From contig NZ_BEWO01000002.1 in NCBI RefSeq assembly GCF_002723975.1, positions 1 through 64,000 of the forward strand: a stretch of DNA of 64,000 nucleotides, in the 5' to 3' direction. Source of the DNA: Gluconobacter japonicus (GTDB lineage Bacteria; Pseudomonadota; Alphaproteobacteria; Acetobacterales; Acetobacteraceae). Made by a program: the position numbers and the translations under genes. The notes beneath the pieces were generated by a model that saw nothing but the letters and a program-made list of their open reading frames with translations, was not told the origin of the DNA and ran no database searches. This document shows positions 29,382-35,522 of this stretch, one piece after another (the first letter of the stretch is position 1; each line of letters opens with the position of its first letter).

Positions 29382-31946
29382 ATGATGGTGACAGGGCTTG
29401 CAGCCGTTCTTCTCGCAATTGCGTTCCTGCTCACGCTCGTCAGCATCATTCAGCCTCTGGCCAAACGGCTTGAGATTTCCGAAACGGTCCTGCTTGCCCT
29501 CGCTGGTATTGTTCTGGGCGGGGCGGCATCGCTCATTGTGCGCTCATCCGCCACAGACCTGCTGGATGGAGCGGCTGAAGCCCTGATCTATTTTCCGATC
29601 AACAGCGAAGCCTTCCTGCTGATCTTCCTGCCCATTCTGGTCTTTCAGGGCGCCATGGCCATTGACGTAAGACGTCTGGCACATGAAACGGCCACTGTTC
29701 TTCTGCTGGCCGTTGTCGCGGTTGTGGTTTCAACCGCCACGATCGGCTTCGCTCTCTACCCCTTTGCTGGTCAAAGCCTTGTTGTCTGTCTTCTGCTGGG
29801 CTCCATCGTCGCCACGACCGACCCATCCGCAGTGGCCGGCATCTTCCGGGAAATCGGCGCTGCGTCGCGACTGACGCGTCTTGTTGAAGGCGAGGCACTC
29901 CTGAACGATGCAGCGGCCATCGCAATCTTCGCCATCCTGCTGGCCTCGGTCACCTCACACCGACACATCCATCTGGGTGAGGCCGTTGTTGATTTCGCGT
30001 CTGCCTTCGGCGGCGCAATCGTTGTGGGTGTCTGCCTGGGCCGGCTGACACTGCTCCTGATCGCAGGTCTGGGTGGCGCACCTGCCGCAGAAATCACACT
30101 AACACTCGCTTTGCCCTACACGGTCTATATCCTGTGTGACGAAATGCTCGGCTTCTCCGGCGTGGTGGCAACAGCTGCTGCTGGCCTGACAGTCTCTGCT
30201 TACGGACCCTCGACATTCCGTCCGCAGGTCTGGCGGTTTCTCAACGACCTCTGGCAGCAACTGGTCTTCTGGGCCGGTTCACTTGTGTTCCTGCTGGCGT
30301 CCATGCTGGTACCACGCCTGCTGATCGGCATGACCCGCTGGGACTGTGTACTGATCCTGATCGCCAGTGTGGCCGGGCTACTGGCTCGCGGTGCCGTCGT
30401 GTTCGGCCTGCTGCCCATCCTTGCTTTCACAAAGCTTTCCCCACCAGTGCCAACACCGTTCAAGGCTACCATGGTCTGGGGCGGTCTACGCGGCGCCATC
30501 ACGCTGGCGTTGGCGCTGGCCGTGACGGAGAACCAGAGCGTCTCCAGCCCGGTTGCCCACTTCATCGGTATCATCGCAACGGGCTTCGTTCTGATCACGC
30601 TGCTGGTCAATGGCACGACGCTGCGTTCTCTTGTGTTGTTCCTGAAGCTCGATCAGCTTTCACCAATTGATCAAGCTATTCGTCAGCAAATTCTGGGCAT
30701 TGGTCTGGGCGAAGTTGCAGAACGTACCCGCGTCATGTCCGACGAACTGGGATTTAGTGAGCAAACACGCATTGGCGTCATCAGCCGCATTGAAAAGCGC
30801 GCAGAAAAGGAGAGGGCGGCCAATAATTTTGAATCTGCCCTGAGTGACCGGGCCCGCGTGAATATCGCGCTTATCACGATCGCCAATCAGGAGCGCTCCC
30901 TGCTTCTGGATCTCTTCCGCATCCAGGGCCTGTCACGTCGTGTGATGGAGACGCTTCTCCGCACTGCCGAGGCCATGTCTGATGGCGCCCGTCTTGAAGG
31001 ACGGTATGGATACGTCAAAGCCCTGAAGCGCCGCCTCCAGCCACCTTTACGCTTCCGGATTGCTCAGGATCTGCACAGTCGCTTCCATTTCGATGAGCCA
31101 CTGATGTATGCAATGATGGAGCGCTTCGAAATGCTCATCATCGCACATCTGGTCTCCCTGTCGCTGCAACGCTTCGTCCGTCAGCGCATGGAGCCAACAC
31201 TGGGTCCACGCATTACGGAAATCGTGTCTGAAGTTCTTGGTCGTCAGCGCAAGCTGCTCGACGATGCACTGGAAACATTGCGTCTCCATTATTCCGGGTA
31301 CTCAGAAGCCCTGGAGAGCCGGATTCTGCGCCAGATCGCCCTTCGTCTCGAAGACGAGGAGTACGACGCACTCCAGGCCGACAACCTGATTTCCGAAGAA
31401 CTTCATAGGGAACTCCATCGCGATATCGAACGTCGGAGCGCGCGCCTCGAAGCGCCTTTGCGGTTCAACCTGAAAAGCGGCATCGAACAACGTTTGAGGG
31501 CTTTTCCGGCGTTCAATGGCGTGCCCGATAGTGTTTTACACACACTCTCCCGCAAGGTGGCGATGCGTTTCGTGTCTCCAGGGGAAGTGCTGTTCAAGCG
31601 CGGACAGAAAGTCCGAACCGTTTACGCTCAGGTGGCAGGACTGGCGGAAGTTCACCTACCTGAAAGGGAAATCCTGTTTGGGAGCGGGGATCTTATTGGT
31701 GCGGCCAGCGTCATTCGGAGCGAGCGTATGCCCGGTACAGTGCGCGCCCTTCAGTTCAGCCACTTGCTGGCCATTCCCAAGCCTGTCTTTGAGCGTCTGA
31801 TCCACGACTACCCGATTGTCCAACGGCTTATTATCGCTCGCAGCAATAAGCGGGCAGACGGACTGCTGGACCCTTACGTCCTGCAAACGGCAGAAGGCGT
31901 CAGATTGGCTCCGTCACAGGATATGAGACGGATTGTCTCGCCCTGA
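29382..31946 (+). CDS. Sodium/proton antiporter (CPA1) with C-terminal cyclic-nucleotide-binding-like domain
   Basis: Predicted inner-membrane Na+(K+)/H+ exchanger. Residues about 1-420 hold twelve or so hydrophobic helices with the CPA1 ion site (SIVATTDPSAVAGI, EGEALLNDAAAIAIF) and WGGLRGAITLALAL. Residues about 430-700 form a long charged helical region (mechanical or coiled-coil-like). Residues about 705-835 look like a cNMP-binding beta-roll (VSPGEVLFKRGQKVRTVY, GDLIGAASVI), without the canonical phosphate-binding arginine being certain. Start ATG 29382 or the next codon 29385. The end overlaps the POT gene's 3' end by 33 bases in opposite orientation. Confidence 0.82.
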   Translation: MMVTGLAAVLLAIAFLLTLVSIIQPLAKRLEISETVLLALAGIVLGGAASLIVRSSATDLLDGAAEALIYFPINSEAFLLIFLPILVFQGAMAIDVRRLAHETATVLLLAVVAVVVSTATIGFALYPFAGQSLVVCLLLGSIVATTDPSAVAGIFREIGAASRLTRLVEGEALLNDAAAIAIFAILLASVTSHRHIHLGEAVVDFASAFGGAIVVGVCLGRLTLLLIAGLGGAPAAEITLTLALPYTVYILCDEMLGFSGVVATAAAGLTVSAYGPSTFRPQVWRFLNDLWQQLVFWAGSLVFLLASMLVPRLLIGMTRWDCVLILIASVAGLLARGAVVFGLLPILAFTKLSPPVPTPFKATMVWGGLRGAITLALALAVTENQSVSSPVAHFIGIIATGFVLITLLVNGTTLRSLVLFLKLDQLSPIDQAIRQQILGIGLGEVAERTRVMSDELGFSEQTRIGVISRIEKRAEKERAANNFESALSDRARVNIALITIANQERSLLLDLFRIQGLSRRVMETLLRTAEAMSDGARLEGRYGYVKALKRRLQPPLRFRIAQDLHSRFHFDEPLMYAMMERFEMLIIAHLVSLSLQRFVRQRMEPTLGPRITEIVSEVLGRQRKLLDDALETLRLHYSGYSEALESRILRQIALRLEDEEYDALQADNLISEELHRELHRDIERRSARLEAPLRFNLKSGIEQRLRAFPAFNGVPDSVLHTLSRKVAMRFVSPGEVLFKRGQKVRTVYAQVAGLAEVHLPEREILFGSGDLIGAASVIRSERMPGTVRALQFSHLLAIPKPVFERLIHDYPIVQRLIIARSNKRADGLLDPYVLQTAEGVRLAPSQDMRRIVSP

Positions 31947-33329
31947 AGGCACATTTTCCGGGGCCAAAAGGCTCCGGAACACAATTGAGCACATCAACAA
32001 AATCACCCCCGCAACCAAGCTGGCTCCACTGTGAAGGAGCCAGAAAGGAACATCTCCAATATGTCCGATCAGGGTTGAGAGCTTACCGATGGTCAGATTG
32101 GCCATAAAAAGATGAAGCGAGAAACAGGCTACGAAAATCGTATTCAAGCTTACCGGTGCAGCACGGGAATACATTGCCATTCCAATGGCATAGCTCATAC
32201 TAAAGCCAATATCGTTGATAATATGAAAAGCCAGCCCCCAGAACAGGCTGATCTGATGAGGCTCAGGATAAAGCCATGATGCAAGCGCCAGAACAGCCGG
32301 GCCTGACGAGGCAATAAAAGTGCCTATGGCCACTTTGGTGATTTCTGCCGGGTCTGACCTGTGTCGGGCATACATTCGCCAGAACCACAGTACGGAAATT
32401 GTCATCAAAGTGCTGATGAAACCATCGAACGAGACGAGACTGCTGACAGGGAACAGATGTCCGAAGAACGTCAGCTGATAATGCTCACGCCCCCACAACA
32501 GATATCCGTCAAAGATCTCATCATTTGGCAGCGCACCTAAAGCCAGCACTGGCAGCAACACCAGAAGAAGAACGCTCGTTTTTTTCTCGCGGGATGTCAG
32601 GCGAGGGCGAGGGGATGAAGCCTTGAAAACCGTATCTTCTGGCAGCCAGCGACGCCCGAAGAGATAAACAATCAACCCAGTCAGCATCCCCAGACCAGCA
32701 GTCAAAAAACCCCAGTGCCAGGCTTTCATTGCCAACATTCCACAGAGGGCAGGCGACACAATAACGGCAGCCTGCACACCGAGAGAGTAGATCTGATAAG
32801 CGTCCGACCGCCGACGGTCATCAAGTTCATAAAGCGCACCAACCTGCGCCCGCAGCCCTCCGGCAGCTCCAATACCCAGCAGAAGAAAAACAACAACCAG
32901 CACGAAGCTCCAGTCGAACGACATCAGGACATGCCCGACGGTCATCAGAATGGCACCCAGAAGGATGGTCCGGGTTTTCCCCAGGAACCGGTCTGCCACA
33001 AAGCCTCCCAATAGGGGCGTCGCATAAACCAGAGCCAGGAAAAGCCCTGTTATGGCGCCAGCCGTCGCCTGAATCCCGACGGGAGCATAAAGAATGTCCA
33101 AAACGGCTTTTACAGCACCCATGCCCCAGACATTCTCAATATGTCCGGACTGAAGAAGATGATCAGCCAGATACAGCACGAGAATGGACTGCAATCCGTA
33201 AAGGGAAAATGCGACCCATCCTTCCGTCAGGACAAGAACCCAAAGCCCCCTCGGATGACCGAAGATCTCCTTATGACGAGGGACGGCCAAGGCATCGATA
33301 ACGGGATCATTAGGAAGCACTTCAGTCAA
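31914..33329 (-). CDS. POT/PTR family peptide MFS transporter
   Basis: Proton-coupled di/tripeptide uptake (SLC15/POT type), inner membrane. About twelve to fourteen hydrophobic helices; YGLQSILVLYLADHLL corresponds to the POT ExxERFSYYG region of helix 1 (here EGWVAFSLYG), and GGFVADRFLG to the following loop. The open frame reaches 33611, but that stretch crosses palindromic repeats and reads unlike any POT N-terminus. I choose TTG 33329 (LTEVLPND), with GAGG six bases before it, giving 471 residues; ATG 33407 is an alternative without a ribosome-binding site. The ExxER motif is degenerate, so peptide specificity is an inference. Confidence 0.75.
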   Translation of the reverse strand: MTEVLPNDPVIDALAVPRHKEIFGHPRGLWVLVLTEGWVAFSLYGLQSILVLYLADHLLQSGHIENVWGMGAVKAVLDILYAPVGIQATAGAITGLFLALVYATPLLGGFVADRFLGKTRTILLGAILMTVGHVLMSFDWSFVLVVVFLLLGIGAAGGLRAQVGALYELDDRRRSDAYQIYSLGVQAAVIVSPALCGMLAMKAWHWGFLTAGLGMLTGLIVYLFGRRWLPEDTVFKASSPRPRLTSREKKTSVLLLVLLPVLALGALPNDEIFDGYLLWGREHYQLTFFGHLFPVSSLVSFDGFISTLMTISVLWFWRMYARHRSDPAEITKVAIGTFIASSGPAVLALASWLYPEPHQISLFWGLAFHIINDIGFSMSYAIGMAMYSRAAPVSLNTIFVACFSLHLFMANLTIGKLSTLIGHIGDVPFWLLHSGASLVAGVILLMCSIVFRSLLAPENVPSGRDNPSHIL

Positions 33330-33404
33330 AGCAGACCTCGGAGGCGGGAGAGGAAAACCTTTCGTAGCGGTCAGCACGACGTAGGGTAAAGGGGAAGAGA
33401 AGAG

Positions 33405-33423
33405 CATTGGCAAAATGCCAATG
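33405..33423. repeat. Palindrome 1 of the TGGC-N5-GCCA array
   Basis: CATTGGC, AAAAT, GCCAATG: seven-base perfect arms. The alternative peptide-permease ATG (33407) lies in its left arm. Confidence 0.85.
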
Positions 33424-33432
33424 CGAAAATCT

Positions 33433-33447
33433 GTGGCAAAATGTCCC
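33433..33447. repeat. Imperfect copy in the TGGC-N5-GCCA array
   Basis: GTGGCAAAATGTCCC, related to the array unit but with an altered right arm; midway between palindromes 1 and 2. Confidence 0.5.
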
Positions 33448-33454
33448 AAGCGCA

Positions 33455-33477
33455 ATCTATGGCAAAAAGCCATAGAT
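33455..33477. repeat. Palindrome 2 of the TGGC-N5-GCCA array
   Basis: ATCTATGGC, AAAAA, GCCATAGAT: nine-base perfect arms, the longest copy. Confidence 0.85.
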
Positions 33478-33495
33478 CTCATCCTCACAATTCTT

Positions 33496-33512
33496 TGTGG
33501 CTTTTTGCCACA
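33496..33512. repeat. Palindrome 3 of the TGGC-N5-GCCA array
   Basis: TGTGGC, TTTTT, GCCACA: six-base perfect arms, with the centre in the opposite A/T orientation to the others. Confidence 0.85.
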
Positions 33513-33581
33513 GAAGAAACTGTCTGATTCCAAGGATATATTTTCCAGAAAATCCCTGAAAACTGCCAAAATCGGGATATA

Positions 33582-33594
33582 TGGCAAAATGCCA
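33582..33594. repeat. Palindrome 4 of the TGGC-N5-GCCA array
   Basis: TGGC, AAAAT, GCCA: same core as palindrome 1, with four-base arms. Confidence 0.8.
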
Positions 33595-33778
33595 AATCTC
33601 AACATCACCAATGCAACAGCCGTACAACCACGCGAAAGTCCTACAAAATGTTGGTTTGAAAGCCTCAGGAATTCAGTTTTACAAGCATCGGAAGAGGTTC
33701 AATATCAGCTCACACGTATGTCGTATAAGATATATTATGCCAACTTATGTATTAGGAAGACGCCGTTTCCTCACATAG

Positions 33779-33791
33779 TCGTGATACACGA
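33779..33791. promoter_or_regulatory. Small inverted repeat upstream of the porin
   Basis: TCGTG-ATA-CACGA, perfect five-base arms, some 110 bases before the preferred porin start. Possible operator; could be chance. Confidence 0.35.
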
Positions 33792-33902
33792 TGACTTGTT
33801 GCAAAGAATGGCCGTTTTGGCGCTAACGTGAAACGAAATTCAATTTCTCCCGGTCTTCGAACGCATTTTCGTGACCGGCTCACTCGATGGAACGGTCATT
33901 GC

Positions 33903-35522
33903 ATGGCTCGCCTTTCTCTGCGTCAGATTGCCTTTCTGGGCTGCGCTTTCTCTCTGGGCTCGCTTACAGTTCTTCCTGCAACGGCACAGGCGGATGACTA
34001 CACCGAACTTCTGGACATTCTTCGCGCCAAAGGCAGCCTGACGCGCGGCGAATATAATAGTCTTCTGGCACACCACCTAAGGCATGGCCGTTCTTCCAGC
34101 ACTTCGACCAATCAGGACGATACATCCAGCCCCCCTGCAAGACACAACCGTTATCGTCGATACAACCCCAATCAGTACGATGGTTCTCTTGAACCGCCGG
34201 ATGTCACAACCATTGCAGCCTCCCAGGCAGCGCAGCGTGCGGCTCAGGACGCTGCCGCCAGCGCACGTGACGCACGCTCCATGCTCGCACATTACGACCC
34301 GGACAGCATTGTCAGGGTCAAACCCTACGTCGCAGGCAAAGGCGTAACCGTTCAGGCTGGTCAGATCGAAATCAATCTGTCCGGCTTCATCAACGGCTTC
34401 TACACCTATAACAGCCCGGGCGGTGGCCGCCCCGTTGCCGGTGGAATCTCCACAGGGGCCAGCGGCTTTGACTCCTCATCCGTTCGTAACGGCCTGCTGC
34501 CAGGCGGCCTGATCCTGAAGTTGAACACCGTTCAGGACGGGATCAAGCTCGGCGCGGTTTTTGGAATGTACCCGGGTCTGAACAATGCGGATGTTGGTAC
34601 ATTCAACGCCAATTCTGGCGGTAGCCCGGTTGGGCTTGGTACGGCAGGCGTCGATTTCCGTCAGGTCTATATGACCGCCGGAACCGACAAACTTGGAACC
34701 ATCAAGATCGGCCGTGACATCGCACTCTTTGCCTCCGATGCCATCCTGAATGACGCAACGCTCCTCAGCGTCGGCAGCACCGGCAGTAACGCCAATCCGG
34801 CCAATACCTCCCTCGGCCGTATTGGCGTCGGCTATGTCTACACCGACTGGCTCCCACAGATCACCTACATTTCCCCGAAATGGCATGGTCTTCAGGGCTC
34901 TCTCGGTATCATGACCCCCTTGGACCAATACAATTTTGCTGGCGGCGGCCTATCTGCCACCACAACACAGCACAGTTCTCCAATGGTTCAGGGTAAAGTC
35001 ACTTACGACACCACCATCGCCGGATTCACCACACGCTTCTGGGCCAGTTTCCTGACACAGCACGTCCAGAACCTGACCAGTTCAACCCTTGGAACCGACA
35101 GTCGCAAAGGCGCGACGGTTGCCGCGGGCGACGTTGGCGTGAAACTGTCCCGCGGCCCATTTGAAGGCGTAGCATACTACTATTACGGCAACGGTCTCGG
35201 CACGACCGGCCTTCTGTTTGACGGCATTTCACAGACCGGACGCAAGCGGAACTCTGAAGGTTACTATGTTCAGGCATCCTATAAGATCCTGCCGCGCCTG
35301 AAGCTGGTCGGAAGCTATGGTGTCAGTAATCTTTATCAGGCGGCTGGCGAAGACAATCCATCACTGGTGCGACGTAATGAGTCCGAAGTCGGCGCGCTGT
35401 ATTACACACTGACAGACTGGATGTTCCTCGTGGGTGAATATGCCCATACGGAATCAGCTGCTCACGGCCCGAACCGCGAAAGCGATCACACCATGTCTGC
35501 CGGTGCGATGATCACATTCTGA
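33903..35522 (+). CDS. Outer-membrane porin
   Basis: Predicted trimer-type beta-barrel pore. From ATG 33903 the product begins MARLSLRQIAFLGCAFSLG and is cleaved after a TAQA-like site, a standard signal peptide; the GTG at 33828 would add 25 residues in front of it. After a low-complexity, Ala/Asp/His-rich N-terminal part (with a short coiled-coil-like stretch AAQRAAQDAAASARDAR), the rest reads as alternating amphipathic strands with many Gly/Tyr/Thr, and the last residue is Phe (MITF), an outer-membrane assembly signal. Length 539 residues from this start. Divergent from the peptide permease. Substrate unknown. Confidence 0.82.
   Translation: MARLSLRQIAFLGCAFSLGSLTVLPATAQADDYTELLDILRAKGSLTRGEYNSLLAHHLRHGRSSSTSTNQDDTSSPPARHNRYRRYNPNQYDGSLEPPDVTTIAASQAAQRAAQDAAASARDARSMLAHYDPDSIVRVKPYVAGKGVTVQAGQIEINLSGFINGFYTYNSPGGGRPVAGGISTGASGFDSSSVRNGLLPGGLILKLNTVQDGIKLGAVFGMYPGLNNADVGTFNANSGGSPVGLGTAGVDFRQVYMTAGTDKLGTIKIGRDIALFASDAILNDATLLSVGSTGSNANPANTSLGRIGVGYVYTDWLPQITYISPKWHGLQGSLGIMTPLDQYNFAGGGLSATTTQHSSPMVQGKVTYDTTIAGFTTRFWASFLTQHVQNLTSSTLGTDSRKGATVAAGDVGVKLSRGPFEGVAYYYYGNGLGTTGLLFDGISQTGRKRNSEGYYVQASYKILPRLKLVGSYGVSNLYQAAGEDNPSLVRRNESEVGALYYTLTDWMFLVGEYAHTESAAHGPNRESDHTMSAGAMITF

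Follow-up and report, generated by a model that had tools for sequence, protein, structure and literature searches.

Palindromes upstream of a Gluconobacter peptide transporter: putative operators of a phage-derived HTH_3 regulator

The window, a 64,000-nt stretch of Gluconobacter japonicus DNA, contains an array of palindromes between a transporter gene and a divergent open reading frame. The transporter (31914..33329, minus strand), earlier described as a peptide permease, does belong to the POT family of peptide transporters (PF00854); the oligopeptide:H+ symporter subfamily model scores 127.3 bits on it, just below the 130.2-bit cut-off. The upstream sequences of relatives place its probable start at a TTG at 33329, with a GAGG ribosome site before it. 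Between this start and the nearest palindrome lies a 78-nt leader and putative promoter (33330..33407, minus strand) with a CTTTACC block that, as judged by eye, recurs upstream of relatives' transporters. The divergent reading frame (33828..35522, plus strand) gave no Pfam, NCBIfam or PHROG match, which leaves the name "porin" from the preliminary description unconfirmed. On the other side of the transporter, the window encodes a Na+/H+ exchanger with a C-terminal cyclic-nucleotide-binding domain (29382-31946), and similar exchanger-type frames were seen by eye after the transporter in L201, L210, L212 and L213.

All four palindromes reported for this region, of the form TGGC-W5-GCCA, are exact and centred at 33414, 33466, 33504 and 33588, and their spacers hold only A and T in four of four cases. 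They comprise the transporter-proximal site 1 (33408..33420, TGGCAAAATGCCA), site 2 (33460..33472, TGGCAAAAAGCCA), site 3 (33498..33510, TGGCTTTTTGCCA) and the distal site 4 (33582..33594, again TGGCAAAATGCCA). The imperfect palindrome noted near 33440 is TGGCAAAATGTCC, at 33434..33446 and 26 nt from site 1. A recount of the arms gave 8, 9, 6 and 4 bases, so that the first of the earlier lengths (7, 9, 6 and 4) needs correction while the others stand. The exact form TGGCWWWWWGCCA occurs four times in the whole window, always within the array, against 0.01 expected; when the intergenic stretch of 498 nt, with the array in it, was dinucleotide-shuffled 20,000 times, the mean was 0.0009 copies and no shuffle held two. 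With any spacer, TGGCN5GCCA occurs five times in the window versus 2.2 expected (at least five in 10 of 100 shuffles) and 94 times in the whole genome versus 46 for a reversed control, and TGGCWWWWWGCCA with one mismatch occurs 47 times in the genome versus 37 for its reversed control. These looser forms are far less striking, so we give weight to exact matches and, among near-matches, to those that fall at expected places; the informative features are the exact A/T-spacer form and its clustering. The hybrid form of the imperfect site, TGGC-W5-GTCC, is present in 8 of 28 transporter loci, and it was rejected as a second operator for want of genome-wide enrichment (54 strand matches in 26 genomes versus 116 for the reversed control). 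In three genomes (L084-L086) the hybrid half-site is doubled and mirror-imaged, at 1226 and 1308.

The palindromes recur upstream of orthologous transporters in relatives: at least two sites, with one mismatch or none, lie within about 310 nt upstream in 25 of the 26 genomes of the genus, and only G004 has no site there. Measured from a reference codon (33320), a site is found 86-90 nt upstream in 20 of the 26 genomes and at 107 nt in three more. Two other genera (L212, L213) also carry the array, beside a transporter that is 46-48% identical. The divergent arrangement in Gluconobacter would allow the array to serve the porin-like gene instead, for example by switching off a particle receptor in producing cells. 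This reading is highly improbable: in six loci (L084-L087, L212 and L213) tblastn found no porin-like homologue (E up to 1e-3; 4.3-9 kb searched), but the transporter keeps its array sites, 85-284 nt above the reference codon, and in L201 the far-side gene runs toward the array and ends short of it. The persistence of the array in loci without a porin-like homologue points to the transporter as its target. Additional exact sites in L201, L202/L209 and L205 fall inside reading frames that look like metG, an envelope gene and atpA, and we treat them as background hits (metG and atpA, like dnaB and cytochrome c below, were named by eye from translations).

Elsewhere in the 3.16-Mb genome the exact motif is nowhere as dense as in the array. 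Its eight exact occurrences (one for the reversed control pattern) are confined to three places: four in the array, three flanking a gene for an HTH_3 regulator on another contig (C8:125854, 125899 and 126511, with a one-mismatch site at 126543) and one at an operon that we call lysis-type (C4:21136). The same three kinds of locus account for 158 of the 181 exact sites in the 26 genus genomes (76 at transporters, 66 at regulators and 16 at lysis-type operons); the reversed control has 21 sites in these genomes, and the remaining 23 exact sites are about background. Counted without prior selection on the spacer, TGGC-N5-GCCA sites have a purely A/T spacer in 76 of 94 cases beside the transporter (and four A/T in another 15), in only 75 of 136 near the regulator (four in 38) and in 16 of 25 at the lysis-type operon (four in nine), versus 8 of 94 in the G. 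japonicus genome overall. The modest share near the regulator counts against the operator reading.

The regulator is a 130-aa HTH_3 protein resembling P22 C2 (G000:C8:125928-126320, equal to L029:8929-9321). One copy is present in each of the 26 genus genomes, and it was recovered at 35 named loci from Gluconobacter, Neokomagataea, Acidomonas, Tanticharoenia, Brytella, Asaia and Swaminathania; a 36th match, at 37% in the Clostridiales fragment L157, was set aside. The 35 loci (0.70 Mb) contain 75 exact sites, every one of them in the interval from -200 to +800 relative to the start of the regulator gene. A site 28-30 nt ahead of that start, with at most one mismatch, is retained in 35 of 35 loci, the outer site (70-86 nt ahead) in 34, L146 being the exception, and at least one member of a downstream pair in 32 (not L134, L137 and L140). 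In the G. japonicus locus the two members of this pair (L029:9512-9556) are 32 nt apart and precede an AT-rich stretch before the end of dnaB with no evident gene; a small RNA or small reading frame is possible there. In alignment A1, composed of the G. japonicus sequence and 21 of the 35 named loci, residues 30-50 of the regulator, which hold the helix-turn-helix, are invariant in the 22 sequences except for V/I41; an invariance line was drawn leaving aside L149 and L156 (in-frame stop, broken match). A profile of the regulator searched against solved sequences returned four matches, to an ICEBs1 Xre regulator and P22 C2 repressors (E 1e-4 to 4e-4). Its tail is short and variable and has no second Pfam domain.

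These distributions bear on the kind of element the array represents, for which the preliminary description offered cooperative binding of a dimeric regulator or a run of small RNA hairpins, leaning to a protein site. DNA sites for a dimeric regulator remain the favoured part of that description, whereas the hairpins and cooperative binding in a fixed register do not fit the comparisons. Spacing between neighbouring sites varies between genomes, from 15 to 117 nt among 72 pairs (22 in the 24-29 nt class and 10 at 98-102), and helical phasing, looked for by eye, was not evident. Hairpins in the transporter leader, acting as attenuators or processing elements, would fit the ability of each palindrome to fold, the pairing of outer positions 4, 6 and 7 above expectation at the regulator loci (36, 30 and 29 of 82 sites versus 0.29, 0.27 and 0.26) and the terminator-like score of one palindrome (one found versus 0.9 expected). 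At transporter arrays, the outer bases tell against folding: among 98 distinct transporter-array sites all eight outer positions pair at close to the frequency expected from composition (the first pair matches in 49 of 98 versus 0.50), and the RNA-hairpin reading was dropped on this ground. The compensation of outer bases noted earlier thus describes the longer arms of this one array and is no general property of the sites. At the regulator loci, outer positions 1, 2 and 5 even pair below expectation. The sites in both comparisons come from related genomes and are not independent. This test used sets of 98, 82 and 17 distinct sites pre-selected for at least four A/T in the spacer. Other features also weigh against hairpins: a purely A/T spacer is needless for a loop, the motif stands before the start codons of unrelated genes, the number and spacing of array sites change freely, and a search for Rfam-type families across 32000-35500 placed no RNA family at the array. 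We consider hairpins the remotest of the explanations weighed here. A mir-2208 match at 34564-34606 fell far below its gathering score and was taken as chance.

The motif also tracks the regulator beyond the genus. Among 200 genomes sampled from the family, a regulator orthologue (E below 1e-60) was found in 13, four of which belong to the genus. These 13 genomes hold 78 exact sites, or 6.0 each (control 0.8), while the 187 genomes without the regulator hold 123, or 0.66 each; leaving out the four genus members, the remaining nine still have 34 sites, or 3.8 each. Such counts come from related genomes that are not independent, and they ignore kinship. Some regulator-less genomes reach nine exact sites (G062, G183); in G183, whose site positions were examined, they are scattered. 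The transporter comparison within the family sample covered 24 chosen genomes, nine with the regulator and 15 without. The negative control was G183, the sole regulator-less genome with a comparable transporter, and that transporter has no array. Two genomes with the regulator, G071 and G074, likewise have the transporter without an array or any exact site. Among these three array-less transporters the only near-match is a single one in L214; this near-match count does not extend to the distant transporter of G238 (36%). Since G004, G071 and G074 have the regulator but no exact site at the transporter, the transporter appears to be an optional regulon member, and the sequences suggest that its membership is restricted to part of the clade.

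An alternative is that the palindromes belong to an unrelated host regulator, nutritional or stress-related, that captured the phage regulator and lysis genes. The transporter is indeed a host gene, and sites also lie near a host-like exported-protein gene (gz125) in five genomes. This alternative nevertheless seems unlikely to us: exact sites are few in genomes that lack the HTH_3 regulator (123 in 187, versus 78 in the 13 that bear it), the comparable transporter of the regulator-less G183 has no array, and no site is more constant than that at the start of the regulator gene itself. The gz125 protein is small, glycine-rich and exported, and the site lies some 130-160 nt upstream of its gene in G001, G008, G022, G071 and G074 (L203, L207, L208, L165 and L166; five genomes in three genera). 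It may possibly be a further member of the HTH_3 regulon.

The third locus kind is a two-gene operon on contig C4, with the site C4:21136 at its head; one product (130 aa) matches no family, and the other (159 aa) belongs to phrog_3108, of unknown function. We call it lysis-type because the 159-aa protein looks lysozyme- or transglycosylase-like by eye and because a site also stands at a lysozyme gene in G001 and G008; no library assigns either protein of the pair a lysis name. In those two genomes the extra site starts 29 nt before a separate Phage_lysozyme gene (PF00959; PHROG endolysin), which equals the spacing at the regulator start. As annotated, the 130-aa frame begins within the C4 site, but similarity to most relatives sets in only at residue 8-10, which probably puts the real start downstream of the site. 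The 130-aa gene is present in 25 of the 26 genus genomes (not G004), and the operon carries the site at 25 of 25 loci, 16 of them exact and nine with one G/C in the spacer; two other genera (L160, L174) have it as well. Relatives of the 130-aa protein at 46-59% identity occur elsewhere in G012, G016, G021, G002, G005, G015, G003 and G017, probably in true prophages.

Beside the regulator lies a head-tail-terminase cluster of about 19.5 kb (G000:C8:106200-125828, minus strand; L158 and L029), positioned between a cytochrome c gene and dnaB. It encodes small and large terminase subunits, portal, scaffold, major head protein, tail sheath, baseplate J, spike and fibre, along with smaller reading frames. 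The sheath (phrog_23) and baseplate J (PF04865) indicate a contractile tail; the portal is of SPP1 type. Among the 26 reading frames listed for C8:106036-125828, none was recognised as an integrase or replication gene: for 17, PHROG searches yielded structural families, unknown ones or no match, six more match genes of the phiKX1 structural region, and the other three (55, 56 and 301 aa) carry no family name. The large terminase gene (TerL) adjoins the regulator in 35 of 35 named loci across seven genera, and portal, scaffold, coat and the following genes are present in all 35, except that the contig of L127 ends inside the portal gene. The cluster adjoins dnaB in 22 of the 35 (in G. japonicus at L029:9843-11363). 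In the other 13 (L140, L143 and L146-L156) no dnaB match was found within the fetched flanks; there, the element has moved or its neighbourhood has been rearranged.

The structural operon opens with a small conserved reading frame (L029:8515-8829, minus strand) that adjoins the outer operator, its first Met lying 31 nt from the outer site in G. japonicus. It was matched in 32 of 35 loci, in Asaia by a short stretch only, and has no PHROG match; motifs such as RRVSA..AAMLASDGW and ALP.GHPVSW.ALW were noted in it. A role as activator or adaptor is possible.

In the 14 pairs computed, dN/dS ranges over 0.007-0.12 for TerL, portal and coat, goes up to 0.24 for t200 and lies at 0.00-0.035 for dnaB; dS exceeds 1 in some of the pairs. 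Pairwise distances of the regulator, TerL, portal, coat and t200 correlate with those of dnaB at r 0.93-0.97, for the G. japonicus genome and 21-22 named loci; the measure compares pairwise distances and is not one of tree congruence. The structural genes are thus under purifying selection and diverge in step with dnaB, as expected of gene transfer agents. This pattern is that of an inherited host component and not of repeated infections, and the cluster is predicted to be a domesticated, gene-transfer-agent-like element.

Several known systems resemble parts of this arrangement. The P22 C2 repressor binds short operators whose A/T centre is read indirectly, by shape. As in P22 C2/434-type systems, a small HTH_3 protein related to P22 C2 here has sites at its own gene, and these are short palindromes with an A/T-rich centre. 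It differs in its length of 130 aa, its short variable tail without a second Pfam domain, and in the presence of sites before a host transporter gene on another contig. In Caulobacter, where XRE regulators (RtrA/B, CdxA/B) and RogA accompany a gene transfer agent, XRE-type proteins are reported to bind upstream of its activator gene gafYZ, to repress it, and also to control host genes such as hfiA (PMC10688885). That account offers a precedent for XRE-type regulators acting both on the control of a gene transfer agent and on host genes (PMC10688885). The targets it describes are a gene transfer agent activator and a holdfast inhibitor (the motif was not compared in detail), whereas here the structural operon, the lysis-type genes and the peptide transporter themselves carry the sites.

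With gene transfer agents the cluster shares its set of phage structural genes, co-divergence with a host gene, purifying selection and lysis-type genes at another locus; among its 26 listed reading frames, none was recognised as serving integration or replication. It differs in being of the contractile-tail type (sheath, baseplate J). RcGTA has a siphovirus-like, non-contractile tail, and the tail sheath (phrog_23) and baseplate J (PF04865) of the cluster speak against membership of the RcGTA-like class (Rhodogtaviriformidae). Non-contractile tails are also reported for the Bartonella and Brachyspira agents (PMC9662315).

A further likeness is to the temperate phages phiKX1 and phiKX2 of Komagataeibacter, the head-tail module of phiKX1 being collinear with that of the cluster (coat 65%, sheath 61%, portal 54% and baseplate J 42%). 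Neither terminase gene of the cluster matches phiKX1, however; of 438 phage records that match its TerL, the nearest are two Synechococcus phages, at 46%. At the same place, apparently that of the tape measure, phiKX1 has a 742-aa protein and the cluster an unmatched one of 301 aa. Terminase exchange and shortening of the tail may therefore both have contributed to the origin of the cluster. The 41.3 kb searched of the 53.2-kb phiKX1 sequence contained no TGGC-W5-GCCA. Prophages are known in acetic acid bacteria, and mitomycin C-induced particles with contractile tails were seen by electron microscopy in two strains of G. cerinus, in G. frateurii and in Acidomonas; the sections consulted do not tie these particles to this cluster (PMC8566455). 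Their tails measure 72-95 nm. By rule of thumb, such a length looks long for a 301-aa tape measure. Another study reports shared phage-like contigs that have matches in other Acetobacteraceae (PMC12142844).

Taken together, these sequence comparisons make it likely that the array consists of operators of the phage-derived HTH_3 repressor, which would couple peptide transport with the production of particles and with lysis. We infer the regulator to be the binder and repression to be the sign of its action. A dimer of the regulator would bind TGGC-W5-GCCA, reading the A/T spacer indirectly, and would most likely repress its own gene, the divergent structural operon, the distant lysis-type operon and, through the array, the POT transporter. 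Sites that end 16-31 nt before the start codons of the regulator, structural and lysozyme genes suggest repression by blocking. At the transporter, 78 nt separate the proximal site from the start codon, a greater distance than at the phage genes, which leaves room for activation there. If repression prevails, the array would keep the transporter promoter low whenever the phage genes are repressed, and its several variably spaced sites could make for a graded or late response; release from repression would then raise particle production, lysis and peptide transport at the same time. The transporter would then seem to be a host gene drafted into a phage-repressor circuit.

Among the literature matches listed, with subscription papers mostly outside their scope, there was no description of this motif, regulator or element. 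Tentatively, and with less confidence than we place in the operators, the element may be a contractile-tailed gene transfer agent of acetic acid bacteria in the seven genera named above, derived from a phiKX-like phage that lost its early region, exchanged its terminase and shortened its tail, with one repressor also controlling the lysis operon and the transporter. Elsewhere, production of gene transfer agents has been linked to nutritional stress or carbon depletion in two reports (PMC10883770, PMC9765227). If the proposed circuit is real, the array would be the visible end of the control of a domesticated phage particle, and the motif would allow that circuit to be read in any genome. The regulator would be a candidate master repressor for making producing strains. 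Peptide transport would be wired to particle release via the array, and the transporter would be a first host target tying such particles to nutrition.
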